Positions 6,684-64,000 of a DNA stretch of 64,000 nucleotides are shown piece by piece. A program made the position numbers and the translations under genes. A model generated the notes under the pieces. The model saw only the letters and a program-made list of their open reading frames with translations. It did no database searches and was not told where the DNA came from. Source of the DNA: Streptomyces olivochromogenes (GTDB lineage: Bacteria; Actinomycetota; Actinomycetes; Streptomycetales; Streptomycetaceae); the NCBI RefSeq assembly GCF_021538895.1, contig NZ_JADDRL010000002.1:62001-126000 (forward strand), written 5' to 3'. Each line of letters opens with the position of its first letter. The stretch's first letter is position 1.

Positions 6684-6704
6684 GATGTCATGACCTGATC
6701 GGGA

Positions 6705-6842: not shown

Positions 6843-7060
6843 TCGGGGGCTCCAGAAATCAATCGGTGGTGGCGGGGTGCCGTCCTGGCTGTCACCGTGC
6901 GCCCACGAGTAGCTCGCGTCACGCCCGAGTGCACCGCTTCCCGATCACCTTCAGTGATCTGTGCCCATCGGAGGCAGGCGGCAGCAGCCATCGACAACTC
7001 GACCTGGTTACGGTACGCGGGGCTACGCCATCCGGTCAAACCGGGGGTCACGGAGAGACA

Positions 7061-7115
7061 CTATCCACAGGCTGGGGACAACAACTTGAACCGCACCCGC
7101 CGCGCTGACTACCGT
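7061..7115 (+). promoter_or_regulatory. dnaA promoter region with DnaA boxes
   Basis: CTATCCACA at 7061-7069 and TGGGGACAA (reverse of TTGTCCCCA) at 7073-7081 are near-consensus DnaA boxes. A promoter-like pair, TTGAAC at 7086-7091 and TACCGT at 7110-7115 with 18 bp between, follows. This fits DnaA autoregulating its own gene, as reported for Streptomyces. The rest of the 397-bp rpmH-dnaA gap holds no gene; the rpmH promoter must also lie there. Confidence 0.55.
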
Positions 7116-7239
7116 GGCTGGACTCCGATTCGTTCCCTTATCCCCGGCCGAGCGGGGTTCCTCCCGCCCGTCCACCCGATTTACATCCCGATCCGTCCCA
7201 CAACCACACGTTCGTGGGACCTGTGAGAGAGCGTGCCCT

Positions 7240-9204
7240 GTGGCTGACGTACCTGCCGATCTTGCCGCAGTGTGGCCACGAGTACTGGAGCAGCTCCTCG
7301 GAGAGGGTCGCGGTCAGGGTGTCGAGTCGAAGGACGAGCACTGGATCCGGCGCTGCCAGCCGCTCGCGCTGGTCGCGGACACCGCCCTGCTCGCCGTACC
7401 GAACGAATTCGCGAAGGGCGTACTGGAGGGCCGTCTCGCCCCGATCGTCAGCGAGACCCTGAGCCGCGAGTGCGGCCGCCCGATCCGCATCGCGATCACC
7501 GTCGACGACTCCGCCGGCGAGCCCCCGGCCCCGCCGGCGCCCCAGCTGCGGCCGAAGCCGCGCTACGAGGAGCCCGAACTCCCCTCCGGGCAGTACGAGG
7601 GATACGGCCGTCACCGCGCCGACCAGCACCAGGGCGGCGACCCGGCGGGCCGCGCCGACCAACTCCCCACGGCCCGGCCCGCCTACCCCTCCGAGTACCA
7701 GCGCCCCGAGCCCGGCGCCTGGCCGCGGCCGCAGCAGGACGAGTACCGGCCCCAGCAGGACGAGTACAGCTGGCAGCAGCAGCGGCTCGGCTTCCCCGAG
7801 CGCGACCCCTACGCCTCGCCGCCCCAGGACTCCTACGGGTCCCAGGATTCCTACGGCTCGCCGTCGCGCGACTCCTACCGGACGCCGTCGCAGGACGCGT
7901 ACGGGCCGGGGAACGACGCGTACGGCTCCCCGGGCCAGGACTACCGGCCGCAGCCGATGGAGCGTCCGTCGTACGACGGCCAGCGCTCCGAGTACGACCC
8001 GTCCCGCGTCGACTACGACCAGCGCGACCCGTCCCGCCGCGAGCTGCCCGAGCCGCCGTCCGGCCCCGGTCACATGCACCGCGGCGGTCCGGCGGGCACC
8101 GGCGGGCCGACGCCCGGCGCGCCCGGTCCGCTGGCCGCGAAGCCCGCGCCGGCGCCCGGTCCCGGTGAGCCGACCGCGCGGCTGAACCCGAAGTACCTCT
8201 TCGACACGTTCGTGATCGGCGCGTCCAACCGCTTCGCGCACGCGGCCGCGGTCGCCGTCGCCGAGGCGCCCGCCAAGGCGTACAACCCCCTCTTCATCTA
8301 CGGGGAGTCGGGCCTCGGCAAGACGCACCTGCTGCACGCGATCGGGCACTACGCGCGCAGCCTCTACCCGGGCACGCGCGTGCGCTACGTGAGCTCCGAG
8401 GAGTTCACCAACGAGTTCATCAACTCCATCCGCGACGGCAAGGGCGACAGCTTCCGCAAGCGCTACCGCGAGATGGACATCCTTCTCGTGGACGACATCC
8501 AGTTCCTGGCGGACAAGGAGTCGACGCAGGAGGAGTTCTTCCACACCTTCAACACGCTCCACAACGCCAACAAGCAGATCGTGCTCTCCAGCGACCGGCC
8601 GCCCAAGCAGCTGGTGACGCTGGAGGACCGGCTGCGGAACCGTTTCGAGTGGGGTCTGATCACCGACGTCCAGCCGCCCGAGCTGGAGACGCGGATCGCG
8701 ATCCTGCGCAAGAAGGCGGTGCAGGAGCAGCTCAACGCCCCGCCGGAGGTACTGGAGTTCATCGCCTCCCGCATCTCGCGCAACATCCGCGAGCTGGAGG
8801 GCGCGCTGATCCGGGTGACGGCGTTCGCGTCACTCAACCGGCAGCCGGTGGACCTGGGCCTGACCGAGATCGTCCTCAAGGACCTGATCCCCGGCGGCGA
8901 GGACTCGACGCCGGAGATCACCGCGACGGCCATCATGGCGGCGACGGCCGACTACTTCGGTCTCACGGTCGAGGACCTGTGCGGCAGCTCGCGCGGCCGC
9001 CAGCTGGTCACGGCCCGCCAGATCGCCATGTACCTGTGCCGTGAGCTCACCGATCTGTCGCTGCCGAAGATCGGCGCGCAGTTCGGCGGCCGCGACCACA
9101 CGACCGTCATGCACGCCGACCGCAAGATCCGCGCGCTGATGGCCGAGCGGCGCTCCATCTACAACCAGGTCACCGAGCTGACCAACCGCATCAAGAACGG
9201 CTGA
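7240..9204 (+). CDS. dnaA: Chromosomal replication initiator DnaA
   Basis: DnaA binds boxes in oriC and opens the origin. I chose the GTG at 7240 ([19 protein letters not shown]), preceded by GAGAGA, giving 654 residues. Domain I covers about 1-85. Domain II is a very long low-complexity linker (about 90-315) full of Tyr, Pro, Gln, Ser and Asp with repeated DSYGS/DAYG units, a Streptomyces feature. The AAA+ domain III carries Walker [10 protein letters not shown] and Walker [11 protein letters not shown]. Domain IV ends with the box-binding helix-turn-helix motif [15 protein letters not shown]. Confidence 0.98.
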
Positions 9205-9248
9205 CGGCCCAGGCCCAGGCACGGGCGCCGAGAGCCGAGCGGACGACG

Positions 9249-9289
9249 CCGAGGGCGCCTCCGGGAACAGATCCCGGAGGCGCCCTCGG
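9249..9289 (+). terminator. Terminator after dnaA
   Basis: An 18-bp perfect stem (CCGAGGGCGCCTCCGGGA and its complement) encloses the loop ACAGA, 45 bp past the dnaA stop. There is no clear T-run, but the stem is very stable, as is usual in Streptomyces. Confidence 0.8.
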
Positions 9290-9630
9290 TCGTTCCGGCA
9301 CGACGCCCGCCGCCGCGCCGGCCCACGTGTCCGGTCATCCCTCCGCGAGGCCGTCTCTCGTAGCCCCCGGAGGGCGTCCCTGGCCCCTCCCGAGGCCCGC
9401 CGCATCCCCTCCTCCGCCGCTCTCCCGCGGAGCGACCCGTCGTTCCGCGGCCACCGGCTGTTCGAATACCTGCCGGGTTACGGCCGCTCTCCACAGATTC
9501 GGTGACTTTCTTCCGTCCACATCCTGGGGACTGCGAAGTTGTCCCGATCTCCGTCCACAGGCTGGCTGTTGAGGAGCTGTCAGCCCAGCTCAGGACCCTG
9601 TGGAATCGTGGACGAAGGATCTCCACAGAC

Positions 9631-9639
9631 TGTGGACAA
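9631..9639 (-). promoter_or_regulatory. DnaA box, perfect
   Basis: TGTGGACAA is the exact complement of TTGTCCACA, the strong Streptomyces DnaA box. Confidence 0.85.
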
Positions 9640-9911
9640 AGCGGAGATCCACAGGCTGTGCACGAAGTTGTCCACCGGTAGCCCACAGGCTGGGGGCGGT
9701 TGTCCCCAGTGAACCGTGTCTTCTCCACATGGCTGTCCACTGTTCGGCAACGCGACGCACCTGATCACCGCGTCGAGTGAAAGCCGTCACACCAAGGTGC
9801 CTGGTTGGGGTGTGGGAAACGTGGGTAAACCTGGGGACGCAGCTGGGGAGAAGTGCCCTCGGGCTGTGGGCGGAGTGTGCAGAACTTCTTGTTCTCCACA
9901 GAGACCCCCAG

Positions 9912-9947
9912 TTGTCCACCGGCGTCACCCACAGGGTCGGTGGACAA
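9912..9947. promoter_or_regulatory. Pair of inverted DnaA boxes in oriC
   Basis: TTGTCCACC at 9912-9920 and its exact complement GGTGGACAA at 9939-9947 face each other with 18 bp between, inside the box-rich half of oriC. Confidence 0.75.
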
Positions 9948-9976
9948 AATTTCCGCGCTGAGCTGGGCAAACGTGG

Positions 9977-9994
9977 TTATCCACGGTATCCACA
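9977..9994 (+). promoter_or_regulatory. Adjacent direct DnaA boxes in oriC
   Basis: TTATCCACG (9977-9985) is followed directly by GTATCCACA (9986-9994), both on the plus strand. They are the last strong pair before dnaN. Confidence 0.7.
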
Positions 9995-10219
9995 GGCCCT
10001 ACTACTACTCCCGACCAGAGAGAGTGCGGAATCCGTTTCGAAGCGGGGCCTGTGCACAACTCGCTGTTTCGAGCCCGACCGCCCCTCGGCACGACTTGAC
10101 CCCGACAGGCACCTACTGTCAGTGCGGTGCGTCAGACTGGTCCCCGGTGTTCTGCCCGTCGCAGTGGGCGGTGACACCGGGTCGTAGGGCTCAGAAGCAA
10201 CAGCAGGAGGCGGCTTACG

Positions 10220-11350
10220 GTGAAGATCCGGGTGGAACGCGACGTACTCGCGGAGGCAGTGGCCTGGGCGGCGCGCAGCCTTCCGGCCCGGCCGCCGGCG
10301 CCTGTCCTCGCCGGCCTCCTGCTGAAGGCCGAGGAAGGCCAGCTGAGCCTGTCGAGCTTCGACTACGAGGTCTCCGCGCGCGTCTCCGTCGACGCGGAGG
10401 TCGAGGAGGAGGGCACGGTCCTCGTCTCCGGCCGCCTGCTCGCCGACATCTGCCGCGCTCTCCCCAACCGCCCGGTCGAGATTTCCACAGACGGTGTACG
10501 GGCGACGGTGGTCTGCGGCTCCTCGCGCTTCACCCTCCACACGCTGCCTGTGGAGGAGTACCCGGCGCTGCCCCAGATGCCGAACGCGACCGGCACCGTC
10601 CCCGGCGAGGTCTTCTCCTCCGCAGTCCAGCAGGTCGCCATCGCCGCCGGCCGTGACGACACGCTGCCCGTCCTCACCGGTGTGCGCATCGAGATCGAGG
10701 GCGACACGGTCACCCTGGCCTCCACCGACCGCTACCGCTTCGCGGTCCGCGAGTTCCTGTGGAAGCCGGAGAACCCGGACGCCTCCGCGGTCGCCCTGGT
10801 GCCCGCCAAGACGCTCCTGGACACGGCCAAGGCGCTCACCAGCGGCGACAGCGTGATCCTGGCGCTGTCCGGTTCGGGCGCGGGCGAGGGCCTGATCGGT
10901 TTCGAGGGCGCCGGACGGCGGACCACGACCCGCCTGCTGGAGGGCGACCTCCCGAAGTACCGCACGCTGTTCCCGACCGAGTTCAACTCCGTCGCAGTGA
11001 TCGAGACCGCCCCCTTCGTGGAGGCCGTCAAGCGTGTGGCCCTGGTCGCCGAGCGGAACACCCCGGTGCGGCTGAGCTTCGAGCAGGGCGTGCTCATCCT
11101 GGAGGCCGGCTCCAGCGACGACGCACAGGCTGTGGAAAGGGTCGACGCGCAGCTGGACGGCGACGACATCTCGATCGCCTTCAACCCGACCTTCCTGCTG
11201 GACGGCCTGAGCGCCATCGACTCCCCGGTGGCCCAGCTGTCGTTCACCACGTCCACCAAGCCCGCGCTGCTCAGCGGCAAGCCCGCGGTGGACGCGGAGG
11301 CGGACGACGCATACAAGTACCTGATCATGCCGGTCCGCCTCAGCGGCTGA
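10220..11350 (+). CDS. dnaN: DNA polymerase III beta sliding clamp
   Basis: This 376-residue clamp starts at a GTG (VKIRVERDVLAEAVAWAARSL) with AGGAGG 9 bp upstream. The three repeated clamp folds are discernible, including the family-typical stretch GVRIEIEGDTVTLASTDRYR and the C-terminal YLIMPVRLSG. It encircles DNA and tethers the replicase. Its transcript starts within or just after oriC. Confidence 0.98.
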   Translation: MKIRVERDVLAEAVAWAARSLPARPPAPVLAGLLLKAEEGQLSLSSFDYEVSARVSVDAEVEEEGTVLVSGRLLADICRALPNRPVEISTDGVRATVVCGSSRFTLHTLPVEEYPALPQMPNATGTVPGEVFSSAVQQVAIAAGRDDTLPVLTGVRIEIEGDTVTLASTDRYRFAVREFLWKPENPDASAVALVPAKTLLDTAKALTSGDSVILALSGSGAGEGLIGFEGAGRRTTTRLLEGDLPKYRTLFPTEFNSVAVIETAPFVEAVKRVALVAERNTPVRLSFEQGVLILEAGSSDDAQAVERVDAQLDGDDISIAFNPTFLLDGLSAIDSPVAQLSFTTSTKPALLSGKPAVDAEADDAYKYLIMPVRLSG

Positions 11351-11499
11351 GCCGGGCCGCCCTCCGTCGGACGAACCCGCAGGTGAGGGCATACGCATGA
11401 GCGCGTATGCCCACAGATGTGCGTGAGCGTCCGGGTTTAGGCTCGGACGCAGGTACGAACGTGCCGCACACGTCACACAGCAACCTAAGGAACCAACTG

Positions 11500-12375
11500 A
11501 TGGAGCTCGGTCTCGTCGGCCTCGGCAAGATGGGCGGCAACATGCGCGAGCGGATCCGCCGCGCCGGCCACACCGTCATCGGGTACGACCGCAACGCGGA
11601 CCTCGCCGATGTCCACAGCCTGGAAGAGCTTGTGGGCAAGCTCTCCGGCCCCCGCGTGGTCTGGGTGATGGTCCCGGCCGGCGAGGCCACCCAGACCACG
11701 GTCGACGAGCTCGCCAAGCTCCTGGAGCCCGGTGACGTGGTCGTGGACGGCGGCAACTCCCGCTGGACGGACGACGAGAAGCACGCCGAGGAGCTGGCCG
11801 CCCAGGGCATCGGCTTCGTCGACTGCGGCGTCTCCGGCGGCGTCTGGGGCCTGGAGAACGGCTATGCGCTGATGTACGGCGGCGACGCGGAGAACGTCGC
11901 CAAGGTGCAGCCGGTCTTCGACGCGCTCAAGCCGGAGGGCGACTTCGGCGCGGTGCACGCCGGCAAGGTCGGCGCGGGGCACTTCGCGAAGATGGTCCAC
12001 AACGGCATCGAGTACGCGATGATGCAGGCCTATGCCGAGGGCTGGGAGCTCCTGGAGAAGGTCGACTCCGTCACGGACGTCCGCGAGGTCTTCCGCTCCT
12101 GGCAGGAGGGCACGGTCATCCGCTCCTGGCTGCTCGACCTCGCGGTGAACGCCCTCGCCGAGGACGAGCACCTGGAGCAGCTGAAGGGTTATGCACAGGA
12201 CTCCGGCGAGGGCCGGTGGACTGTGGAGGCCGCCATAGACAACGCGGTGCCGCTGCCCGCGATCACCGCCTCGCTGTTCGCGCGGTTCGCCTCCCGCCAG
12301 GAGGACTCGCCGCAGATGAAGATGATCGCCGCGCTGCGCAACCAGTTCGGCGGCCACGCCGTAGAGAAGAAGTAA
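11500..12375 (+). CDS. gnd: 6-phosphogluconate dehydrogenase, decarboxylating (short form)
   Basis: The enzyme oxidises 6-phosphogluconate to ribulose 5-phosphate and CO2 in the pentose phosphate pathway. It has 291 residues, so it belongs to the short (GntZ/YqeC-type) branch that often uses NAD rather than the 470-residue form. The nucleotide-binding motif [12 protein letters not shown] is at the N-terminus (GxGxxG), followed by DGGNSRW and the substrate-binding [13 protein letters not shown]. The start is the ATG at 11500 with AAGGA upstream. It sits between dnaN and recF, a position conserved in Streptomyces. Confidence 0.95.
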
Positions 12376-53223: not shown

Positions 53224-53310
53224 GCGCGGGTGGCGGAATAGGCAGACGCGCTGGATTCAGGTTCCAGTGCCCGCAAGGGCGTGGGGGTTCAACTCCCCCC
53301 TCGCGCACCA
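53224..53310 (+). tRNA. tRNA-Leu (CAG anticodon)
   Basis: A class II tRNA: acceptor GCGCGGG with CTCGCGC, anticodon stem CTGGA/TCCAG around TTCAGGT giving CAG, variable arm TGCCCGCAAGGGCGT, T-arm GGGGGTTCAACTCCCCC, discriminator A and encoded CCA (53308-53310). Everything downstream is accessory in character. Confidence 0.97.
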
Positions 53311-53346
53311 TGGAGCACCGACGAAAGTGCTCCGGTTGCACCGACG

Positions 53347-53382
53347 GAACGGGCGGCATCGTGATCACGATGCCGCCCGTTC
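53347..53382. terminator. 36-bp perfect palindrome after tRNA-Leu
   Basis: The 36 bases from 53347 (GAACGGGCGGCATCGTGA) to 53382 are a perfect palindrome centred between 53364 and 53365. It probably terminates tRNA-Leu transcription. Confidence 0.7.
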
Positions 53383-53406
53383 TGCTGTGTGTGGCCAGAA
53401 ACACGT

Positions 53407-53444
53407 GGACCGCCGACGGCTGAGGCCGTCGGCGGTCCCGTTTT
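53407..53444 (+). terminator. Second terminator after tRNA-Leu
   Basis: A 14-bp perfect stem (GGACCGCCGACGGC and complement) encloses TGAG and is followed by CGTTTT. Confidence 0.75.
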
Positions 53445-53509
53445 CGGGTGTGGATCTTCGGTTGCGTCGAGGGTGGGCTACTGGTGGCTTGTGAGGAAGG
53501 TCTCAGGGG

Positions 53510-55270
53510 TTAGGGCTCGTTGACGTAGCCCTTGGGAGTCCATGTGCCCAGTGGCTTGGTCTCGCGGCGGCGGGTGGGTCGGCGGCGCGGTCGGTCGTCG
53601 TGGAGGGCGATCGAGTCGGCCCAGGCCCTGAGCTTGCGGCGGTTGGCGTGTGCGAGCTGGAAGGCCAGCAGGAGGGTCTGGGCGGCGATGCCGCGGATCC
53701 GGCGGGTACCGGCGTCTTCGAGGCGCTCGTAGAGGGGGTCCTTGGCGTAGCCGTTGATGCCTTCGACGCTGTTGCGTAGCCGGAAGTACACCCGCTGCCA
53801 GGCTTCGGAGCCGTACTGGAGGGGCTGCCAGAGGCCGGCGCCTGCCTCCGGCGGGACGGTGACGGTCCTCTGGCTGCAGCACGGAGGTGAGCCCGCAGGG
53901 CTGGGAGCGGGGTCGACGAGGGGCAGGTGGATGCCGCGGCCGAGGGTGTAGGCCTTGAGGGGGCATTGGGTCCGGTTGGCCTCGGCGGGGCACATCACGC
54001 GCCGGTGGCCTTCGGCATCGGGGCGCTGCTTGGGCATGAAGACGTAGGCGGCTCGGGCGCGGATGCGGTTGATCCAGGTCTGCTTGTCGATCTTCTCGTT
54101 GATCAGGTCCTTGGTGGCTTCCTTGAGCTCCTGGGGCATGGACGGGCAGTACCAGTTGCCCTCGACGAGTTCGGCGCCGGCGAAGCCAGCCTGGAGGCCG
54201 AGCTGGTCCTTCGCGTAGTCGTAGACAGGCTCGTAGCCCATGGCGCGGATGGGGAGCTGGAAGTTCTCCGGCTTCTGGTCGTTGTAGGCGCGGTCGCCCG
54301 CCAGGTAGCCGCGCGGGAGGCTGTCGTCGATCTGCTGGAGAGCCTCGACGGCGACGTGGCCGGGGCGGTGGCTGGGCTTGTCGACGGAGAAGGCGATGAC
54401 CAGGGCCGGGACGACGTCGGGGTCGGCGGAGCCGTCAGGCAGGGGGACGCCGTTGTGGCTGGGGTCGCGGGCGATGACGAGGGAGGCGTCGTAGCCGAAC
54501 AGGCTCTTCTTGATGCGTTCCGCCTTCCTCTGGAGCCTGGCGCCCTTCTTGTCCTGCCGGTCGGGCGCGAGGTTGTCGAGGGCGAGGGGGTCCTTGTGCT
54601 TGGTGGTGCGCACGTACCAGGCGGCGTCGGGGTCGGTGGCGGTGACAGGGCTGTTCGGAGCGAGCCCCTTGGCGTAGGTGCCGATGACGGTGGCGTCGAC
54701 GCAGACCGAGCCGTTCCAGCGGTCTTCCAGGAGCGGCATCGCCTCCCGCAGGGACATGGCCAGGATCAGGTTGGCCAGCTTGACCATGAGAGTGCGTTTC
54801 CGGGCGAGTTCGTCAGAGTTGGCTTTGGCCAGGAGTTTCTCGGCATGACGGCGGGCCAGGCGGTGGTTTTTGGGGAGGGGGGACGGATCGATCGCTCCGA
54901 GGATGCTGTGCAGGCGGCGGCGGACGGTGGCGTAGGCGGCTTCGAAGCCGCGGTCGTGGTCGGGGTAGCGGCGTAGGCCGAGCTGCTCGCGCATTGGCTC
55001 GGAGAGGGAGAAGAACAGCAGGTCGGTGACCGCAGTGAAGGTGACGACGCCGCCGTTGCGGGCGGAGGCCAGGCTCATGCCGACCAGCAGGGCCTCGACA
55101 GGGAGCTTGCAGGGGCAGCCGGTGCGGCGTGCAACGAGCGGCTCGATCTCCTCGATCAGGCCGGAGCCGGTCACTTCGTCGCGGATCTCGGCAGCTTCGA
55201 GGTCGGGAACGAGTGCGCGCTGGGAGCGCAGGCGAGCGATACGGGTGTGGCGTGCGAGGCGGCTGGTCAT
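53510..55270 (-). CDS. DDE transposase (IS4/IS1182-like RNase H fold)
   Basis: The protein has 586 residues from the ATG at 55270, with AAGGAG upstream. The candidate catalytic triad is Asp192 (in SVCVDATVIGTY), Asp326 (in YLAGDRAYND) and Glu503 (in LRNSVEGINGYAKDP), in the order and context of IS4/IS1182-type transposases. A Cys-containing insertion lies between Asp326 and Glu503 (CPAEANRTQCP and a CC pair). The N-terminal 120 residues are helical. It starts 2 bp after the recombinase-like gene, so the two are surely one operon. I saw no IS-type inverted ends immediately around it. It may be a stand-alone IS or part of the island's own machinery. Confidence 0.75.
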   Translation of the reverse strand: MTSRLARHTRIARLRSQRALVPDLEAAEIRDEVTGSGLIEEIEPLVARRTGCPCKLPVEALLVGMSLASARNGGVVTFTAVTDLLFFSLSEPMREQLGLRRYPDHDRGFEAAYATVRRRLHSILGAIDPSPLPKNHRLARRHAEKLLAKANSDELARKRTLMVKLANLILAMSLREAMPLLEDRWNGSVCVDATVIGTYAKGLAPNSPVTATDPDAAWYVRTTKHKDPLALDNLAPDRQDKKGARLQRKAERIKKSLFGYDASLVIARDPSHNGVPLPDGSADPDVVPALVIAFSVDKPSHRPGHVAVEALQQIDDSLPRGYLAGDRAYNDQKPENFQLPIRAMGYEPVYDYAKDQLGLQAGFAGAELVEGNWYCPSMPQELKEATKDLINEKIDKQTWINRIRARAAYVFMPKQRPDAEGHRRVMCPAEANRTQCPLKAYTLGRGIHLPLVDPAPSPAGSPPCCSQRTVTVPPEAGAGLWQPLQYGSEAWQRVYFRLRNSVEGINGYAKDPLYERLEDAGTRRIRGIAAQTLLLAFQLAHANRRKLRAWADSIALHDDRPRRRPTRRRETKPLGTWTPKGYVNEP

Positions 55271-55272
55271 GG

Positions 55273-56184
55273 TCAGAACTCCTTGAGCGCGGCGGCGGCC
55301 TGGTCGGGCGAGAGGTTGCGGACGTGCGGCAGGACCCGGTCGATGGAGCGCAGGGTGGCCAGGCCTGCGGCGGCCATCAGGGTGGGCAGGTGCATGCGGG
55401 CCTCGATGGCGTCGACGAGCCAGGTGGCCCGGGCCCGGCCTATGACCAGGGGCGGCATTCCGGGCGGCTTCTTGGTGCGGGCGAGGAAGTTGGTGACGGT
55501 GTTGGTGCCGCGGGTGTGACTGCTCGGACGGAAGAGGTAGCGGGCCTGGCCGGGCCGGGAGGCCCAGGCGGTGGCCTCGGTGAGGACCGGGGCCCAGGCG
55601 GTACGGCACAGCACCACGCGGGCGCGCGGTCCGCGGACGGCGACGGCCACCGCTCCGTTGGGTGCCTCACGTACGTCGTGGGTGCGTAGCGGGATGATCT
55701 CGGGTGAGTCCAGGGCGCAGCCGAAGCCGAGGGCAAGCAATGTCAGCAGGCCGTACCGCAGCTCGTCGGTGGGCTGGGCGCGGGCTGAGGCGTACAACTG
55801 GGCCTGTTCCGGCTTCGGGTACGGGCGGGAGGCGTCCGAGCCGGAGTATGCGGCCGGGTTGCCGGTGATCAGGTCAGGGCCGAGCAGGGCGCGGCGGAGT
55901 TTGTTGAGGCGGCAGCGGCGGTTGGAGCGGGAGGATTCCTCCAGGTGCAGGCAGCCGGTGGCTAGGTACCACTCGATCGCCTCCGCGGTGAGCAGGTGCT
56001 CTGCCTTCGTGGGACGCCCGGAGGCGTCCGCGTGCGCGGCGGCGTGCGCGAGGGCACCGAGCCAGTCGCGGGCCTCCTTCGGCGTGGCCGGCTTGGCCTT
56101 GGCCACCGCGCGGCGGCAGTCGGGGCCGACGCGGTCCCAGATGGGGCCGGAAAACTGAGGCCGGTAGCGCTCGATCGCGTCCAT
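55273..56184 (-). CDS. Tyrosine-recombinase-fold protein, apparently catalytically degenerate
   Basis: The protein has 303 residues from the ATG at 56184. An N-terminal helical domain covers about 1-115. The C-terminal part follows the tyrosine recombinase plan: LLTLLALGFGCALDSPEIIPLRTHDV at about 146-171 (where active enzymes have GLRxSEL), a beta hairpin (GAVAVAVRGPRARVVL), IGRARATWLVDAI at about 248-260 (box II), and LMAAAGLATLRSIDRVLPHV at about 269-288 (where active enzymes have LGHxSxxTTxxYxH). The first Arg and the nucleophilic Tyr are absent (Leu285 at the expected place), though Arg252 may remain. I infer a DNA-binding, non-cleaving relative. The alignment is by eye. Confidence 0.55.
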   Translation of the reverse strand: MDAIERYRPQFSGPIWDRVGPDCRRAVAKAKPATPKEARDWLGALAHAAAHADASGRPTKAEHLLTAEAIEWYLATGCLHLEESSRSNRRCRLNKLRRALLGPDLITGNPAAYSGSDASRPYPKPEQAQLYASARAQPTDELRYGLLTLLALGFGCALDSPEIIPLRTHDVREAPNGAVAVAVRGPRARVVLCRTAWAPVLTEATAWASRPGQARYLFRPSSHTRGTNTVTNFLARTKKPPGMPPLVIGRARATWLVDAIEARMHLPTLMAAAGLATLRSIDRVLPHVRNLSPDQAAAALKEF

Positions 56185-56295: not shown

Positions 56296-56607
56296 GTGCC
56301 CCAGGGAGACAAGCGACGACTCAAGCCCCTCACGTACGTGGTCGAGGGCATCTGGCCGCACGCTGTGCTCGGTGGCCACCATGGGGCCTGGGTGGCGCAG
56401 GAGGTGGCAGCCCGGCTGCGCCGGGTGATCGACGCCAACGGCTGGTCGGTCGCCGAGGTGTCCCGGCGCACCGGGGTGTCCCGGATGACGATCGTGCAGG
56501 TGCTCGACGGCGCGGTGTGGTGCGACCTTCTGACGATCGCGAACCTGGAGAAGGCGCTGGAGGTGGACCTCTGGCCCGGCCGCGAGCCGGGCAATCCTCC
56601 GCAGTGA
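56296..56607 (+). CDS. XRE-family helix-turn-helix regulator
   Basis: The protein has 103 residues from a GTG at 56296. After a short N-terminal strand (PLTYVVEGIWPHA) comes a five-helix XRE domain (about 33-95): VAARLRRVIDANGWSVAEVSRRTGVSRMTIVQVLDGAVWCDLLTIANLEKAL. It ends DLWPGREPGNPPQ. Phage-repressor-like size and position opposite the recombinase-transposase operon suggest it binds the palindrome at 56217. Confidence 0.8.
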   Translation: MPQGDKRRLKPLTYVVEGIWPHAVLGGHHGAWVAQEVAARLRRVIDANGWSVAEVSRRTGVSRMTIVQVLDGAVWCDLLTIANLEKALEVDLWPGREPGNPPQ

Positions 56608-56821: not shown

Positions 56822-57454
56822 CTATTCAAACTTCCAGTTCATACGCGGGCGGTAGTAGACGTGCCGATCGTCCTCGCGCGTGATGCGCTCCACGGCGCCG
56901 ACCAGGGTCAGGGCCCGCAGGAAGTTGCGCAGGCGCTTGCGCCCTCGAGGGTCCTCTTTGGGGATGCCCAGGATTTTCGCGATGTCCTCACTGCCCCAGG
57001 CGATGTCGAGGCGGGAGGCGATGATGTTCAGGATTTCCTGCTGTTTCTTGCTGCGGATGATGATCTCGGCTGATGGCGGTCCCGCGTCCGCTGGCGTTGG
57101 AGCGGGTTCGGTAGGCGCGGGCGGCTTCCTGTCCGATACGGATGGTTCCCGGAGCTGCGGGTTCGGGACGATGCGCAGCGTCACTGAAGGGGCGGCCTGG
57201 GCGGTGCAGATACCGTGCTCTCTGGCGCGTTCGTGCATGGCCCACAAGCGCAACTGCATCCCCACCAGGCCTTGTGCCTCATCGCGGTGAGCGATCAGCG
57301 CCTCGCACTTCTCGGTTTCCTCGCGCAGCGCCGCGTTCAGCGTTTCGATGGCCGCTTGGGATTTCTCGATCAGGGCGTCGTACTGACGGACCGCACGCTC
57401 CGCTTCGTCCCCGAGGTCAGCCGGGGGACTTGGGAAAGTCTCCTGGTACGTCAT
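56822..57454 (-). CDS. Coiled-coil plus winged-helix protein, unknown
   Basis: The protein has 210 residues from the ATG at 57454 (MTYQETFPSPPADLGDEAERA). Codons before that ATG in the same frame lose G/C third-position bias, so I do not extend it to 57565. A coiled coil (about 15-75, AVRQYDALIEKSQAAIETLNAA and onward) is followed by a Pro-rich linker and a C-terminal winged-helix-like domain (about 138-210, KKQQEILNIIASRLDIAWGS, then RNFLRALTLVGAVERI). It is downstream of the fused transposase on the same strand, with 150 bp between. Role unknown; DNA binding is likely. Confidence 0.65.
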   Translation of the reverse strand: MTYQETFPSPPADLGDEAERAVRQYDALIEKSQAAIETLNAALREETEKCEALIAHRDEAQGLVGMQLRLWAMHERAREHGICTAQAAPSVTLRIVPNPQLREPSVSDRKPPAPTEPAPTPADAGPPSAEIIIRSKKQQEILNIIASRLDIAWGSEDIAKILGIPKEDPRGRKRLRNFLRALTLVGAVERITREDDRHVYYRPRMNWKFE

Positions 57455-57476
57455 GCGGACCACGGTAGAGGCAAAG

Positions 57477-57519
57477 CCACTTGGCTGTCTGGCCTTTAGG
57501 GGACCAGTTGGCTTTTTGG
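57477..57519. repeat. Direct repeat pair beside the fused transposase gene
   Basis: CCACTTGGCTGTCTGG (57477-57492) and CCAGTTGGCTTTTTGG (57504-57519) match at 13 of 16 positions with starts 27 bp apart. They sit in the AT-rich 153-bp gap 57455-57607, which holds no gene. They could be transposase-binding sites or an operator. Confidence 0.45.
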
Positions 57520-57607
57520 TGGCTGCAAGCCTTATAGAGCGCTTCTTTATCGTCTGCATGTTCATGATTCGCTTTTGTGTATGGATATTTGAGTCTCGGA
57601 GTAGGCT

Positions 57608-60235
57608 TTACTCGCGCCTGGGAAGGGGCAGCTCGCAAAGCAACGAAATTGTCAGCTGTTCGGTGCCTTCGTGAATGGCACGGACGGCTCCGGCGCGCAA
57701 GAGGAGAGCCAGTTGGCCCACGTTGCCGCCGGTGCGCTGGTGGAGAAGGCTCGCCTGGGCGGTCAGGGTGCCAGGCTCGTGTGCATGCAGACGCAGAGCG
57801 TGCTCGGCCCGGCTGATGACGTCCTGCCAGATCTCGCCTTCGGGGACGAGGTCCAGGCGTACCGACAGAAGCCGGCGGTGCGGCGTGTACGTCACCGTTG
57901 TGGCGAGAGATGTGGGGCTGCCGATCCCGGCGAAGACGAACGTCGCCGGGATGCGGTCGCACAGGTAGTCCAGAGTCTCGGCCACGGCCGTGTCCGACCA
58001 GCCTGGACTGCGAAGTTGCTGGATCTCGTCGATGAGGACAAGGCTTGTGTGCGCGGCTGCCATCGCCTCGCTCACCCGGACCGCCAGGTCGGCGGTCGTG
58101 GGTGAGCCGCGCAGCGGGATGCCGAGACTCCGCGCCAGTTCGGCCAGAAGCAGCCGCGGCGAGGTAGCAGGCGGCAGCCGGACATAGATCACCGGCATGC
58201 TGGAGTCGCCTGGTTCCTCCGAGGGGCTCCCAGGCAGTTGGGCGGTGTAGCGGCGGGCTGCTTCCAGCAGGGCCGTAGTCTTGCCGGTACCGGACACCCC
58301 GTGCAGCAGCACTCCGTGACGGGCGCCTGCCCCGTACCGGTTGAGGTCCAGCAACTCCTCGATCCGCTGAGCGGCGGACACGACGCCCGGCACGCGCAGC
58401 GGGAGCCTGGCGTGATAGGCCACGCGAACATGGTCCGGTACTGCGCGTGAGCAGGTCTCCAGGTCCGAAAATGGGGAGACCGCCCAGTCACGACAGGACG
58501 GCATAGCCCACGAGACGGGGCCGGGCGCGCTCTCGTCGGCGGCCGTGTCCGGCTGCCGCCGGGCGGTGGCGGCGTAGACCTCCGTGTGTTCGAGCGGCGC
58601 GTGATGCAGGATGGTCTGGATGGCGGGCCGGGCAGCAGGAGAGATGGCGGTAACCGTGATCCACTCGTCGTCCGCGGACCGCAGCCACACGCGGCGGAGG
58701 TCGTACGGGTCCCAGCGCACCTCGAAGGACCTGCGGCCTCCGCTGGGCGACACCGAGGAACGCAGTGGGTCCAGGGCCGGGGCGTTGTAGGTGTGCCCGC
58801 CGAGCCGCAACCCCTGGGGCCCGACCACTCTCCAGGACACGTTAAGAAGTGCCGGGAAAACCTGCGGGGGAAACGGCGTCGGTGTCCATCCCGCTGAAGC
58901 GGTCAGCGTCTCGTGACGGGTCCGTGGCGTGTGCGTTCCGCCTGCGGGTGAGGTGGGCACGGGGGCGTCCGGCCAAATACGGGTCACCCACGCGTCGAGC
59001 AGGTCTTGCACCATCTCGAGCGGCCATCCGGCCTCGTGCGCGGCCCGCCCGGAGGTGGACAGCAGATGGTCGGTGAACAAGGACGCGAAGTGGTCCAGTG
59101 TGCGCTCCACAGCTTGGCGGTCCGTCGGCCGCACACGCTGCGCGTACCGCACGTGGATGCCCAGTTGGGCGCAGGCTTCGCGCAGTGTCCGCAGGCCGGG
59201 AGCGTTGGACTCGTCGGCGACGAGGCTGGCCGGGCGGACGATCAGAGAGGACGTGTGTCGCCGCTCCGTGCCGTGGAGCCGTCCGGACAGGACGGCGCCC
59301 CAGTCGTCGTACACGTCCGGGGGCGAGCACATCCGGGCAAGCAGCGTCGTGTGCAGCGGCGGCCGGTGCCCGTTGTGGACGACGGCCGCCAGTACGAGCC
59401 TGGTCGCCTCGTCCAGAGCGACCAGCAGACGGAGACGTTCCTTTGGGTCTGCCCCGCCGGATGGCAGGGGCAGCTCGACCGTGTCCAGATGAACGCGCTC
59501 GCCCACGGCCACATCGTTCCCCCGGCGGAGCCGCGTCTTCCCTTCGCTGACAAGCATCTCGACGGCGAGCCGCCGGACGGCGGCCCGGGAAGGCCTGGGC
59601 AGCTCGCCCGCCGCGATGGGCCCGGCCAGCCGGGCCAGCACCTGATCGTGTAGATGCCTGGCCGTCGGGGGGTCTCCTGGCCGTTGCGTGGCGAGCACCT
59701 CCCAGACCGTCGTCCGTACCCGGGGATCCAGCTGGGCTTCGTCGGTCACGTACCGCCCGGCCCGGCCATCGGCGAGGCCTGCCAGTCCCTGCTGCTGATA
59801 ACGCTGCCGCTTGCGCTGCACCGTCCGCGAGGAAGCCCCGCGCACGCCCAGGTCGGCCAACTCCCTTGCTTTGGCTTCTTCCCGCTCGGCCAGCGTGTGG
59901 CGTGACGGGTCGTAGGCCGGGAGCGGCTTGGTGCCGGGCGGGGCGTCGTGCGGCACACCGGTCATCACCTCGGTGACGTGCTGCCGCCACCAGTGGACCC
60001 GTTCCAGCGCCGCCTCCGGCAGGGGCGGCGCCGACTGCTCCGGAGGTCCTGTGCCCTGCCCCAGGAACGCGAAGTCCTCCGAGGCCAGCAGTGAGACAAC
60101 GTCGACGTGCTCGGTGGCGCCGAGGTTGTCCAGCAGCGCGACGCGCCCGCCGCACACGCCGGTCACCGTGCACACCTGCCCGTCGAACCGGACCTGGTCT
60201 CCCAGGCTCAGCCGGTCGGGCCACAGCGCATCCAT
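57608..60235 (-). CDS. Fused TniA/TnsB-like DDE transposase and TniB/TnsC-like AAA+ ATPase
   Basis: One 875-residue polypeptide from the ATG at 60235, which has GAGGAG upstream. Residues about 1-230 hold an N-terminal region and helix-turn-helix domains (LADLGVRGASSRTVQRKRQRY). The RNase H domain covers about 245-425 with candidate catalytic Asp251 (VHLDTVEL), Asp341 (LVADESNA) and Glu377 (QAVERTLDHF), giving D-x35-E. A Mu-type C-terminal beta domain (about 460-560) contains LGGHTYNAP and RWDPYDLRRVWLRS. The ATPase covers about 600-870: Walker A GVSGTGKT at 646-653, Walker B SLVLIDEIQQL at 731-741, FVFAGIGSP, and RTGGNVGQL near 834. In Tn7/Tn5053 relatives these are two proteins. No TniQ or TnsA is visible. 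Confidence 0.85.
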   Translation of the reverse strand: MDALWPDRLSLGDQVRFDGQVCTVTGVCGGRVALLDNLGATEHVDVVSLLASEDFAFLGQGTGPPEQSAPPLPEAALERVHWWRQHVTEVMTGVPHDAPPGTKPLPAYDPSRHTLAEREEAKARELADLGVRGASSRTVQRKRQRYQQQGLAGLADGRAGRYVTDEAQLDPRVRTTVWEVLATQRPGDPPTARHLHDQVLARLAGPIAAGELPRPSRAAVRRLAVEMLVSEGKTRLRRGNDVAVGERVHLDTVELPLPSGGADPKERLRLLVALDEATRLVLAAVVHNGHRPPLHTTLLARMCSPPDVYDDWGAVLSGRLHGTERRHTSSLIVRPASLVADESNAPGLRTLREACAQLGIHVRYAQRVRPTDRQAVERTLDHFASLFTDHLLSTSGRAAHEAGWPLEMVQDLLDAWVTRIWPDAPVPTSPAGGTHTPRTRHETLTASAGWTPTPFPPQVFPALLNVSWRVVGPQGLRLGGHTYNAPALDPLRSSVSPSGGRRSFEVRWDPYDLRRVWLRSADDEWITVTAISPAARPAIQTILHHAPLEHTEVYAATARRQPDTAADESAPGPVSWAMPSCRDWAVSPFSDLETCSRAVPDHVRVAYHARLPLRVPGVVSAAQRIEELLDLNRYGAGARHGVLLHGVSGTGKTTALLEAARRYTAQLPGSPSEEPGDSSMPVIYVRLPPATSPRLLLAELARSLGIPLRGSPTTADLAVRVSEAMAAAHTSLVLIDEIQQLRSPGWSDTAVAETLDYLCDRIPATFVFAGIGSPTSLATTVTYTPHRRLLSVRLDLVPEGEIWQDVISRAEHALRLHAHEPGTLTAQASLLHQRTGGNVGQLALLLRAGAVRAIHEGTEQLTISLLCELPLPRRE

Positions 60236-60403: not shown

Positions 60404-60448
60404 GGCACAGGGCGGATCTTGCCCGCTGCACCCGAATGGAACACTTCA

Positions 60449-60470
60449 GGGTGCTATTCCAATGGCATGA
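60449..60470. repeat. Palindromic repeat, copy 2
   Basis: The 22 bp contain TGCTATTCCAATGGCA, one base from the perfect palindrome at 56217-56238 and in the same orientation. It ends 16 bp before the GTG start at 60487, where a bound repressor would block translation-start or promoter access. Confidence 0.85.
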
Positions 60471-60486
60471 ATGCAGGGTGACATAC

Positions 60487-60939
60487 GTGCCCCGTTCCAT
60501 TCCTGCTCCTGCCGCAGTCGTCCGTCCCGTCGTCATCGACCGGGCGGAACACCGCTTCCTGCTGTCGCCCGCTCAACTCCACTGCGGGGACGCCTGGTCG
60601 GTGCCAGCCGTGCCCGTGCGTGCGGGCGAGCCCTACCGCCGGACCGCGGTGCGCTACCTGCGGTGGGAGACCGGCCTGCCCTGTCTGCGGATCGCACCGG
60701 TGGTCGGGGTCCTTCCGGCCGTCGGCGGGCGGCAACGCGTCGAGTACGTCGTACTGGCCGGACCTGCCTCCGAGGCCTGGTTGGAGGACGTGCGTGTCCT
60801 CTTCGGCGCGGATGCGCGCTGGTGGAGCACGGCCCAACTGCGGGACGCAGGAGTGCGGGTGGAGCCGGACACGCTGCCGCTGCTCATGGACGGCTATTGG
60901 GAGGGCTGGCTGCCCGACGGTGAGGTCTCGCTCGAATGA
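60487..60939 (+). CDS. Nudix-like protein with a degenerate Nudix box
   Basis: The protein has 150 residues from a GTG at 60487 (MPRSIPAPAAVVRPVVIDRAE), with AGGGTG upstream. The segment PYRRTAVRYLRWETGLPCLRI matches the end of a Nudix box (A-x2-R-x-L-x-x-E-T-G-L), but the REUxEE catalytic acids are not all present. A later ARWWSTAQLRDAG matches the usual W-x-x-x-x-x-L strand. I infer a Nudix fold that has lost hydrolase activity or changed use. It is divergent from the fused transposase. Confidence 0.55.
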   Translation: MPRSIPAPAAVVRPVVIDRAEHRFLLSPAQLHCGDAWSVPAVPVRAGEPYRRTAVRYLRWETGLPCLRIAPVVGVLPAVGGRQRVEYVVLAGPASEAWLEDVRVLFGADARWWSTAQLRDAGVRVEPDTLPLLMDGYWEGWLPDGEVSLE

Positions 60940-60990: not shown

Positions 60991-61458
60991 GTGACCATGT
61001 ATGCCGTTGAGATCACCCTGACCCGTGCGGTCGGGACCGTCGAGCTGAGAACCGCGCGGCAGGAGGGCCGTCTGCCCTTGGCGGCCTCCGGAGACCGCAA
61101 ACGCCTCGCCGTGCTTGTGTCAGCGCAGAACGAACCCCGGGCCATGAAGAAGATCTGGCGGCGGCTACAGCACGCACTGCCTATCGATGTGCTGTGCAGC
61201 ATGTTCCCTGGGCCCGACGGCAAATACCTCATGAGCATCCCCATGGCCGACGAGGTGTGGGAACGGGTCTGTGGACAGGCCGTCGTGGCCGGCAAGACTC
61301 CGGAGGACTTCCTGAGTGCGGCCGTCGCACAGGCCCTTGCCCGGGACTGGTCCGATCGCCGGGCAAGGCTGGACCGCTCGCTGGATGTCCTGCTGCGCGC
61401 CTACACCCCAGAGGAGGTCACCGAGGCGGCCGCCCGGCGAATCGACCGCCGATCCTGA
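60991..61458 (+). CDS. Hypothetical protein
   Basis: The protein has 155 residues from a GTG at 60991 with GTAGGAGAG upstream. It has no signal peptide or membrane segment. The N-terminal half is beta-rich (AVEITLTRAVGTVELRTARQ). The C-terminal half is helical (IPMADEVWERVCGQAVVAGK, TPEDFLSAAVAQALARDW) and looks somewhat like a ribbon-helix-helix protein, which is only a resemblance. It lies 51 bp behind the Nudix-like gene and is probably co-transcribed. Confidence 0.6.
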   Translation: MTMYAVEITLTRAVGTVELRTARQEGRLPLAASGDRKRLAVLVSAQNEPRAMKKIWRRLQHALPIDVLCSMFPGPDGKYLMSIPMADEVWERVCGQAVVAGKTPEDFLSAAVAQALARDWSDRRARLDRSLDVLLRAYTPEEVTEAAARRIDRRS

Positions 61459-61767
61459 GCAGCCCGCAACTTGATATGCCGTCCTCGCGGCCGCGAGCTG
61501 GGCACCTGCCGGCGGCGGCCGAACCTTTCAGGCGACGCCGAGAGCACTGAGACTGAACATGCTGACGAGGCGACCGCTGTCCTCCATCGCGGTCGTTTCG
61601 ACGAGATTCAGGTGCCGTCCCTTCCTCCTCGACTTTCGATGTTCTGACAGGTCTGTGGTCTCACGCGCCGGCGTTGTTGCTGGCGGTGGCCCACGCCTGT
61701 TGGAGGGTGCGGCTTCCCGCTCGTGGGCTGACCTGGGCGGGTGGGCAGACACGATCACCTGCCTTGA
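61459..61767. other. Non-coding gap between convergent genes
   Basis: These 309 bp show no supported gene. CGACCGC (61571-61577) and GCGGTCG (61589-61595) could form a weak terminator followed by TTTCG. Confidence 0.4.
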
Positions 61768-63024
61768 TCACTTTGACAGGTTCCCGCCCTCCCTCGGAGG
61801 GTCGAGCCTCCGGCGTGATTGCTCCAGACGGAGTGGTGTCCAGTCGATTTCGCTCACCTCGGACAGCGCAGCCTCGACTTTCGCGGGCAGTCGTCGAGCA
61901 GCGATCGGATTCCGCACACGATGCCACCATCGGAAGTCTGCGACCTGGCGGACTGCGGCATCAGCCTGCGCGATGAGCGGGTCGAGGGTTGCGGCCTGCT
62001 GGGCGATATCCGCCGCCAGCTTCTCCCGGTACGGCTCGAGCGTGGGATCGTCAACAATGGTCATCCGCCACAGTCGCAGGGCGGAGAACTGGGCCCAGGA
62101 CCGCGACGAGTCCTCAAGCGCTGCGCGGGCGGCGAGGATCCCTTCAATAGCGCTGGTCAGTCTCCGTTCACGACCTCGTAGAGTTTGATCGCGCGCGACG
62201 TCCTCAAGCGTCGTGATTGCATCGCGGAGTTGTTCGATGTCGTGGAGCTGGTGTGTCTGGAGCAGAATCCCGCTCGACTCGATCTGTCGCCAGTTCGTCT
62301 CCGAGAGGGTCCCGGCGCTCCTCGCGGTTTGGTAGACCTCCGCGAGTTGGAGTTGCGTGGCGCGAGCTTCCGCATGCCACTCGCGGAGCTGTTTTCGCTG
62401 GACGCTTCCCACCTGTTCGGAAATGGTCGTGAGCTGTTTCTCGATCCGATCGAGCTGAGCCTGGAGCGCCATCGCGGAAAGAGCGTTCGTCATCGACGCT
62501 GCTGCGGCGAGCCCACCTACCCCCTTGAGGCGCGCAACATGCTGGAACCTGCCCTTGTTGCCTCGAACGAGGGCGAGGACCTCTCCCGCCTTGTCCTTCG
62601 CCGCACTGCCCGCGCGAATAGCGGCCGCCATCTCCGGGTCGACCAGCATGAGGCGTCCGACCATCTGCTGGTACGTCTGTACGCCGTCCACGGCAGCCTT
62701 GATCTGAGTGGCCCATGATCCGAGCTGCATTGGCGTCTGGACTACCGTTGTGCCGAACAAGTCCAGATTCTCGGGCGCGCCGAACACGTACACCTCATCG
62801 TCGCTGGTTCCTGGCACGACCAAAACCTGGGAGTCAACGACAGGTACGGGCGATGGTGGCGACATCATGCCGGTCATGCCCGAGGGCGCCTTTGATTGAA
62901 GGTTCTCGTTCGCGGGTGCCGTGACGATGTTGAGCCGACGCCGACGGAGGATCAGTAGTGTTGCCAACACGGCACAACCCGCAGTTGCTAGAGCAACCAG
63001 GGTGATTGCGACAGCGTCCCGCAT
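61768..63024 (-). CDS. Membrane-anchored helical protein, unknown
   Basis: The protein has 418 residues from the ATG at 63024. An N-terminal membrane helix (AITLVALATAGCAVLATLLIL) is followed by RRRR and a short Pro-rich linker. A long, mostly helical cytoplasmic part then follows with coiled-coil character (about 170-300: LQAQLDRIEKQLTTISEQVG, LREWHAEARATQLQLAEVYQ). A hydrophobic glycine-rich patch (GVGGLAAAASMTNALSAMALQ, about 168-188) precedes it. I do not recognise a family. Its codon use has less G/C third-position bias than the core genes, consistent with acquisition. Confidence 0.65.
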   Translation of the reverse strand: MRDAVAITLVALATAGCAVLATLLILRRRRLNIVTAPANENLQSKAPSGMTGMMSPPSPVPVVDSQVLVVPGTSDDEVYVFGAPENLDLFGTTVVQTPMQLGSWATQIKAAVDGVQTYQQMVGRLMLVDPEMAAAIRAGSAAKDKAGEVLALVRGNKGRFQHVARLKGVGGLAAAASMTNALSAMALQAQLDRIEKQLTTISEQVGSVQRKQLREWHAEARATQLQLAEVYQTARSAGTLSETNWRQIESSGILLQTHQLHDIEQLRDAITTLEDVARDQTLRGRERRLTSAIEGILAARAALEDSSRSWAQFSALRLWRMTIVDDPTLEPYREKLAADIAQQAATLDPLIAQADAAVRQVADFRWWHRVRNPIAARRLPAKVEAALSEVSEIDWTPLRLEQSRRRLDPPREGGNLSK

Positions 63025-63166
63025 GTGTCATTCCTAATCGTCATCCGATGCTTCTCTGCTGCCCAGCTCCGCGCGGCCAGGCCCCCTTCACCCATACGAC
63101 GATCAACGAAAACGTGGAAAGTCGAGGCCCCCTCCGGGTGGGAAATTTTCCTTCTCCCGGGATGTG

Positions 63167-64000
63167 CTACGGCTGACCCGAGCCCAGGGCGATATCCGCG
63201 TTCAGGCCGCCCCAACTGTCGGGGGTGCGCCAGAGGACATGGACGCCGAAGACGCCATGCAAGGTGTCGGCCGACCAATCCTCGGCGGGCGGCTCGGACA
63301 GCACCAGGTGGAGGCGGTCGGCAGGAGCGGGCAGGGTGTGATTGATCTCCAGGAGGCGGGTGGCTCCCAAGCGGAGGTCGGCGTAGGTGGAGCGACCGGC
63401 TCCGAGAACCTCGTAGAGGAAGTGGCCGTCCTCAGCGATGCGGCTGACATCGATGACCGGAGACTCGGTTGGTTGCAGGTCCACCCAGAGCAAGGCCGAC
63501 ATCAGCGCGTGGCGCACCGCTTCGTGCTTCTTGCAGGTGCGGTCGGCGGCCGCAGCAGTCTCCAGGGTGTGCAGAAGACTCTGTGCGGGCGTTGACGGCG
63601 TGGCGGGAATGTCTGTGACGGGCGTCATGGGATCGGCTTTCTTCTGCTCGGGCTGCTGGACGGTGGAAGCGGGTGCAGTCTCGGTTTCCGGTTCGTCCGA
63701 GGAAGCCAGGCGGAGATGGAGCGCCTCCCGGGCCTCGGCCAGAGACTGGATCCAGCCCGCGCGTGCCAATTCCTCCCGGAGTCGGTTTACGTCCAGGTTG
63801 TTGTCCTTGAGCGCGCGGTTGGTGTTCGCCGCGAGGTCACGTAGGAGGCTCAGGCGGTGCTTGTCCGGGGATCCGAGCACACGCCGCACGTCCACCCAGT
63901 CCGCCTGGTCGCGGCGAAGGACGCGGTTGGCCATGCCCTTGAGCTCAGAGAGACGTTCGCGGGCGTTCTCCGGAACAGTACTGTCTCCGTTGGTCAGCTC
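63167..64000 (-). CDS. Hypothetical protein, 5' end cut by window edge
   Basis: The frame stays open from the stop at 63167 to the right edge, including 22 codons upstream of the internal ATG at 63934, so the true start is probably outside. The visible 277 residues have a helical N-terminal part (ANTNRALKDNNLDVNRLREE), a Pro/Thr/Glu-rich linker (about 105-140) and a compact C-terminal domain. That domain contains HFLYEVLGAGRSTYADLRL, LHLVLSEPPAEDWSAD and VFGVHVLWRTPDSWGG. The last domain has the strand-helix rhythm of some nuclease-like folds, but I cannot assign it. It is upstream of the membrane protein on the same strand. Confidence 0.6.
   Translation of the reverse strand, partial: ELTNGDSTVPENARERLSELKGMANRVLRRDQADWVDVRRVLGSPDKHRLSLLRDLAANTNRALKDNNLDVNRLREELARAGWIQSLAEAREALHLRLASSDEPETETAPASTVQQPEQKKADPMTPVTDIPATPSTPAQSLLHTLETAAAADRTCKKHEAVRHALMSALLWVDLQPTESPVIDVSRIAEDGHFLYEVLGAGRSTYADLRLGATRLLEINHTLPAPADRLHLVLSEPPAEDWSADTLHGVFGVHVLWRTPDSWGGLNADIALGSGQP

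Follow-up and report, generated by a model that had tools for sequence, protein, structure and literature searches.

The stretch of DNA analysed here (64,000 nucleotides of Streptomyces olivochromogenes, hereafter the window) contains a gene, designated C, that encodes a TnsB-type DDE transposase and a TnsC-type AAA+ ATPase in one polypeptide. Comparison with other genomes indicated that this TnsB-TnsC-type fusion is genuine and conserved. The gene is carried by a transposon of 39.6 kb whose insertion site is precisely the 3' end of a tRNA-Leu gene. Two further genes of this transposon, F and E, resemble an IS4-type DDE transposase and a tyrosine recombinase, respectively. Since elements without C share the F/E pair, similar ends and 5-bp duplications, it is most likely that F/E moves the island and that C is an accessory.

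Gene C is a single frame of 875 amino acids (aa) from its ATG, within 910 codons free of stops, and its own genome gave no second match at E ≤ 0.001. The original prediction, made from the DNA letters, had described an uninterrupted 875-residue frame, which was confirmed at 57608-60235 on the reverse strand. The frame was divided as follows:

57608..60235, reverse strand: gene C, TnsB-TnsC fusion, 875 aa (open reading frame, Pfam, PDB sequence search, alignments)
58646..60235, reverse strand: C residues 1-530, TnsB-like half with a helix-turn-helix (HTH) region, DDE core and Mu-type C-terminal domain (Pfam, alignment)
58436..58645, reverse strand: C residues 531-600, weakly conserved linker where split proteins would have the tail of TnsB and the N terminus of TnsC
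57611..58435, reverse strand: C residues 601-875, TnsC/TniB-like AAA+ half (Pfam, PDB search, alignment)
58277..58300, reverse strand: Walker A motif GVSGTGKT, C residues 646-653

The window protein was assigned to the TnsB-type DDE transposases by its Pfam match to Mu-transpos_C (residues 469-527, 2.7e-7) and by residues D251, D341 and E377, which align with the catalytic triad of five split TnsBs; the match to rve (0.017) was under the cut-off. Its assignment to the TnsC/TniB AAA+ ATPases was based on the match to TniB (residues 621-772, 3.5e-15) and on a PDB sequence search that returned VchTnsC and ShTnsC (6e-6 to 3e-5); AAA_22 was matched as well (6.5e-16). The triad residues and Walker A stood at exactly the positions originally proposed, and the Mu-type domain and Walker B (LVLIDE, residues 732-737) were likewise borne out. 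An NCBIfam match to an IS481 transposase was rejected, as it scored 37.9 bits against a curated cut-off of 224 bits.

Fused loci were found in the window and at L002, L003, L004, L144 and L145, and the fusion is intact in all of these six but L003, where frameshifts spread it over three frames. The four further intact fusions are 48-66% identical to the window C. Loci L002-L004 were obtained by a peptide scan of public genome contigs as three relatives matching C residues 2-872; the single frames of L002 and L004 are 884 and 890 aa long. When 843 bases of the ATPase half were searched at the DNA level (E ≤ 1e-12), four of 392 genomes of the genus matched, namely the window's own, G141 (L144, fused), G208 (L145, fused) and G319 (split). 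The fusion was read as 885 aa in L144 and 904 aa in L145, with 959 and 962 codons open, respectively. The linker lies at the same position between the halves in all five intact fusions.

Two further candidates were rejected. In G319 (L146), tnsC is a separate gene; a side observation at this locus was that one 964-codon open frame (8547-11438) holds TnsB together with a region that looks TnsA-like by eye. A protein search of 100 relatives gave 46 with a match to C at E ≤ 0.001, and among the relatives listed G058 alone, besides the window genome, looked fused; its reported 1084-aa open frame resolved at the DNA level into two open reading frames with an intervening stop. Among plasmids, 134 records match C, and the 40 listed among these all hold it in two or three pieces; three prophage records match, each in two pieces. 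These searches would miss highly diverged fusions. The same two-domain order, for which the original prediction had proposed a homologue search, thus characterizes the close homologues (five intact fusions), whereas the distant ones (~30-37% identity) are split.

In the actinobacterial Tn7-like operons L134-L139, TnsB and TnsC align with the halves of C over most of their length at ~30-37% identity, and the D-D-E and Walker motifs are present, as in C; there, however, each of the two proteins has a gene of its own and TnsB ends in a C-terminal peptide, whereas C is one chain without the peptide. Locus L134 begins with a TnsA gene (Pfam 1.9e-6), followed by tnsB (7210-9291) and by tnsC from 9285, so that tnsB and tnsC overlap by a few bases; the arrangement in L136 and L138 resembles it (by likeness), with TnsA first, and no TnsA gene adjoins C. 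The gene after tnsC in L134 and L135 is TniQ-like by eye, that of L134 having no Pfam match. The TnsB/TnsC core is Tn7-like; in the label Tn7/Tn5053-type given earlier, “Tn5053-type” is inexact, as the nearest split relatives include TnsA-first operons. Gene C was probably derived from an actinobacterial Tn7-like operon with overlapping tnsB and tnsC.

The C-terminal peptide of TnsB is missing from the linker in all five intact fusions, and the linkers are 16-40% identical to that of the window. Among split TnsBs, the short peptide was found within the last 30 residues of 20 of 24 distinct uncut proteins, using the pattern [PGAL][LFMYW][GEPN][IVL][FYW][DN], which was drawn up after the tails had been inspected; an earlier, stricter pattern matched 5 of the 24. 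Cut frames, repeated tails and loci whose match stopped before the Mu-type domain were excluded from this set. In ShCAST, the C-terminal hook of TnsB binds TnsC, and the covalent tether in C may therefore stand in for the TnsB-TnsC contact. The fixed 1:1 ratio of the two halves, to which the original prediction drew attention, follows trivially from the fusion and carries no information yet on function.

Residue 251 of C is D in the window, L002 and L004, Y in L144 and N in L145, whereas D341, E377, the Walker residues K652 and T653 and the acidic residues of Walker B are preserved in all five intact fusions. Identity to the window over residues 241-530 (DDE core) and 601-875 (ATPase half), respectively, was 45% and 63% in L002, 70% and 68% in L004, 49% and 60% in L144, and 49% and 59% in L145, the ATPase half being better conserved in three of the four comparisons. 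C is under selection, most evenly across the ATPase half: the ratio of nonsynonymous to synonymous substitution rates (dN/dS) was 0.36-0.56 in the DDE core and 0.34-0.41 in the ATPase half and lay below 1 wherever scorable, the linker being scorable in two of the four comparisons only.

The transposon that carries C extends beyond the window, and the following features were recognized in its left part:

53224..53310, forward strand: tRNA-Leu (CAG), target gene of the transposon (ARAGORN; the same tRNA lies beside L002, L003, L004 and L144)
53307..53311: left copy of the 5-bp target-site duplication ACCAT, directly after the GCGC that ends the acceptor stem
53312..53350: left transposon end, terminal GGAGCACCGACGAAAG, inner GCACCGACGGAAC at 53338, with its inverted partner at extended coordinate 92865
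53510..55270, reverse strand: gene F, IS4-type DDE transposase-like, the gene closest to the tRNA (586 aa counted from ATG; start uncertain)
55273..56184, reverse strand: gene E, tyrosine-recombinase-like and TnsF-like, 303 aa from ATG (307 aa in alignments)
56296..56607, forward strand: small Xre-like HTH gene, oriented against E and D (HTH_31 2.9e-5, under the cut-off)
56822..57565, reverse strand: gene D, ~222-247 aa, conserved, family unassigned, start uncertain (coiled coil and winged helix by eye only)
60436..60939, forward strand: gene B, NUDIX-like, divergent from C, start uncertain (Pfam NUDIX 3e-4, 1.2e-7 in L004)
60991..61458, forward strand: gene A, 155 aa, last conserved module gene (weak ribbon-helix-helix likeness, 0.011 in L004, below cut-off)
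61459..64000: start of the variable cargo; the transposon runs on to extended coordinate 92880 (contig C112:154880)

The right copy of ACCAT starts at extended coordinate 92881, outside the window, with 39,569 bp between the copies, and the duplicated bases start directly after the acceptor stem. The ends are inverted, reading inward GGAGCACCGACGAAAG at the left and GGGGCACCGACGGAAC at the right. Exact 5-bp duplications and inverted ends were likewise found in G102 (ACCGT), G101 (ACAGC) and G100 (ACAGA, with one base of spacing ambiguous). In G141, ACCAC lies beside the tRNA at the left, and a separate contig holds the right end, then ACCAC and then a further left end. Chromosomal sequence begins again near extended coordinate 93086: of 10 compared stretches of the genus, 7 start at 93086-93246, and L103, L117 and L118 gave no match in this comparison. 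An 18-bp repeat, TGTGAGGAA..TCTCAGG (53490, 93030), was considered as an attachment site, but the copy at 53490 is internal to the element and the one at 93030 lies past the right duplication; searches tolerating 4 mismatches or fewer did not find the left copy in L004 or the right copy in G100. Because the copies were misplaced or not found, this model was dropped for that of the 5-bp duplication. Terminator-like hairpins were seen in the left end just past the tRNA-Leu (53312-53560) and beyond the right end (extended 92880-93086), the latter where the native tRNA-Leu terminator would be.

From C toward the tRNA the order of genes is D, the small HTH gene, E and F, and on the other side of C it is B and A. 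The order is the same in the window, L002 and L004, and also in L144 apart from A, which was found in L002 and L004 and not detected in L144, where the contig stops 948 bp past B. Similar HTH genes are present in L100, L101 and L111-L114, with none in L097-L099 or L115. Between the window and L002, synonymous divergence was 0.82-0.96 for A-D, about twice the 0.40-0.47 of E-F, and the two blocks therefore appear to have partly separate histories.

The E-F pair was examined at 15 loci (the window, L002, L003, L004, L144, L097-L101 and L111-L115; L003 holds parts of both genes). In 13 of them, F and a tRNA gene are oriented with their 3' ends toward each other, the tRNA being Leu CAG, Leu GAG, Ala GGC or Ala CGC. 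Within the stretches examined at L097 and L100, a tRNA gene was not seen. The remnants L116-L118 also adjoin tRNA-Leu. Residues D192, D326 and E503 of F are invariant in 11 of 11 aligned members, and a profile of F searched against PDB gave nothing convincing, with no match below E 0.4. The profile of E matched the XerC-like 4a8e (3.2e-4), and weak Phage_integrase matches were found in 4 of 12 members (best 0.048). An AlphaFold2 model of E (predicted local distance difference test, pLDDT, 85; predicted template modelling score 0.60) matched Cre/XerH in Foldseek at 1e-6 to 1e-5, the listed matches ranging from 1e-6 to 1e-3 with TM-scores ≤0.50. The box I Arg, the His and the Tyr, the usual catalytic residues of tyrosine recombinases, are not conserved in the alignment, and no zinc-finger region was found within the 307 aa aligned. 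By profile, model and alignment, E is a tyrosine-recombinase-like protein without the catalytic residues and is TnsF-like.

Two side observations concern this pair. In L112 (G036; 5483-8746), E and F lie in one 1088-codon open frame, possibly a second fusion in this element family, and in L111 two tRNA-Ala(GGC) genes (3366-3439 and 9144-9217), ~5.8 kb apart, bracket the E-F pair.

Elements of this kind also occur without C. The one in G065 is 6.9 kb long and lies at a tRNA-Leu 3' end with an exact ACTTG duplication; another, on contig C111 of G071, is ~6.8 kb long, belongs to a tandem array and has exact ACTCA at both ends, which are also the five bases at the tRNA-side end of L098 in the same genome. 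D-like genes adjoin E in elements without the fusion (by eye). In the islands with C (n=5), GGGAAA-type repeats, one or two per island, lie at distances of ~61-62 and 83-84 bp from the right end. We tried these repeats (GTGGGAAACGATCT) as C-specific sites and rejected them, because similar repeats occur in three right ends without C, in weaker versions at 63 and 85 (in G065 only at 85) with 3-4 mismatches, for which the chance per end is 0.03 at 3 and 0.25 at 4. Right ends were not found for L098, L101 and L111-L116 in the stretches examined. As the ends are common to elements without C, their recognition by the TnsB half is argued against. A separate observation was that right end, 5-bp duplication and left end directly succeed one another in L097 (G071:C111; 2343-2366 and 9157-9180) and in L149 (G141); the elements are stacked in tandem here, probably at a single tRNA-Leu site.

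The position flanked by D and the NUDIX gene, held by the fusion in the islands with C, is filled in L100 (5942-8456) by a TniQ protein (1.2e-16), and in L101 and L112 by a gene of other appearance (by eye). The alternatives TniQ and fusion are both Tn7 target-choice proteins, which hints that C is a helper for target choice or restraint. As a side observation, the F gene of L100 looks broken.

Taken together, these comparisons suggest that F is probably the transposase of the island and E probably its tRNA target selector. We infer that C may be a single-chain AAA+ helper whose transposase domain is eroding. In the proposed mechanism, F would transpose the element, leaving the 5-bp duplications, and E would direct insertion to the 3' ends of tRNA genes; C would use its former transposase half to bind either DNA or the F/E complex, and its ATPase would license or restrict target use by F/E, while C itself would not join DNA. 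We see an even chance that C was in this way co-opted as an accessory by a different transposon, one moved by F and aimed at tRNA 3' ends by E. The more elaborate proposal, that a Tn7 regulator-transposase pair, in one chain and losing its catalytic site, controls an unrelated DDE transposon (F) that homes via a dead recombinase (E), is possible and is put forward tentatively.

Several observations weigh against this interpretation. The assignment of F as a transposase consists of its motifs and one Pfam match, to DDE_Tnp_1 (4.6e-5), in one of 11 members, and the window F has no match. In G208 (L145), the fused C lies beside D and the HTH gene without matches to E or F; a recombinase-like gene near C was considered as an E homologue there and rejected, as it gave no convincing alignment with E. 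(At the same locus, 3300-11752, IS-like genes were seen between D and the fused C, and a tRNA-Arg further along, L147.) Three of the five intact fusions retain the whole DDE triad, so that in these C may yet be catalytically active, and against L004 the DDE core (70%) is conserved as much as the ATPase half (68%). The AlphaFold model of full-length C (pLDDT 54.8) was too poor for a structure search. In addition, help in trans is possible in the elements without C, because a TnsC-like ATPase (27%, E 6.5e-12) is encoded on a separate contig of G065 and the absence of a match to C in G071 refers to 9 of 39 first-look candidates scored.

Some of the evidence would suit a C that is a mere passenger, a decaying Tn7-like remnant captured beside D with no role in the movement of the island: the catalytic Asp is lost in two members, L003 is frameshifted, and the twofold higher synonymous divergence of A-D than of E-F points to partly separate histories. 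However, dN/dS stays below 1 wherever scorable (0.34-0.41 in the ATPase half), the frame is retained in five of the six loci at 48-66% identity, the same gene order recurs in the window, L002, L004 and L144 (A not detected), and none of the five intact fusions has lost its Walker motifs. We regard this alternative as unlikely.

It is less probable still that C is the active transposase of the island, its DDE half performing cutting and joining, its AAA+ half picking the target and E (perhaps with F) being a captured target selector. The window, L002 and L004 do retain D251, D341 and E377, and the 5-bp duplications are consistent with such a role, being typical of the Tn7/Mu type. Tn7-like elements are also documented to borrow selectors such as TnsF (PMC10293859). 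However, the Tn7-like trait of a 5-bp duplication with inverted ends is shared by elements without TnsB/TnsC, two elements without C having similar ends and exact duplications, and L144 has lost the first catalytic Asp yet keeps F, E and a left end at tRNA-Leu. The original idea of a transposase covalently joined to its regulator stands as a genuine and conserved TnsB-TnsC-type fusion, but its application to the island's own transposase is not supported, given these C-less elements and the loss of the first Asp in two of the five intact fusions. Finally, a sequencing or assembly artefact joining two genes, with which the split state of the distant relatives (~30-37%) would agree, is very unlikely and has a negligible probability, because five intact single-frame members occur in five genomes with the linker at the same place in all.

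The cargo is variable: in the three relatives compared, the first ~5 kb of cargo showed no similarity to the window island at the DNA level. Along extended coordinates 63170-90614 the cargo of the window island is rich in defence genes, with type I restriction-modification, a UvrD-type helicase, an SMC-like ATPase, an NB-ARC/TPR protein, a viperin-model-like radical SAM protein and a trypsin-like protein with Trypco2. No Pfam match to a TniQ/TnsD-type selector was found in module genes A-F or in the 9 cargo genes scanned. A zinc-motif scan of 53.3-95.9 kb gave one match, in a short uncalled frame, and this motif also misses the TniQ-like genes of L134-L135.

How a TnsC-type ATPase hands target DNA to a TnsB-type transposase is a central question in the biology of Tn7 and CRISPR-associated transposons (CASTs). 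A single chain without the TnsB C-terminal peptide, in some members also without the catalytic Asp, offers a natural test of what tethering replaces and of the role of the ATPase without chemistry. If the more elaborate proposal, in which the pair controls F, is true, a transposase would have been turned into a regulator of another transposase. Among the papers listed by searches of the open-access PMC library, none was recognized as describing a TnsB-TnsC or TniA-TniB fusion, nor the E-F element; the host element, in which an IS4-type DDE protein stands beside a dead tyrosine recombinase, thus looks undescribed in these papers and could offer another tRNA-directed insertion system.

In Tn5053/Tn402, TniA, TniB, TniQ and the TniR resolvase are encoded in one operon; in the island, the TniA and TniB functions are in one chain, and no TniQ or resolvase family was found by Pfam among genes A-F. 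Natural TnsA-TnsB fusions are described for type I-B2, I-D and some I-F3 CASTs in PMC11406308. Like C, each of these unites two core Tn7 proteins covalently in nature; however, they join a nuclease to the transposase, whereas C joins the transposase to an AAA+ regulator. In PMC10761935, TnsB was fused to a homing endonuclease by engineering. The type I-D CAST homes to tRNA-Leu (PMC10293859), as does the window island; it inserts 30-33 nt downstream of the tRNA with TnsAB, TnsC and TnsD, whereas the island is inserted at the end of the acceptor stem. PMC10293859 also describes TnsF of Tn6022 as having an inactivated recombinase domain and acting as a target selector. TnsF has N-terminal zinc fingers, a TniQ partner in Tn6022 and comM as its target. 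TnsF (Tn6022, Tsy) and E share a relationship to tyrosine recombinases, and E, unlike TnsF, adjoins tRNA genes and a DDE gene of another family.

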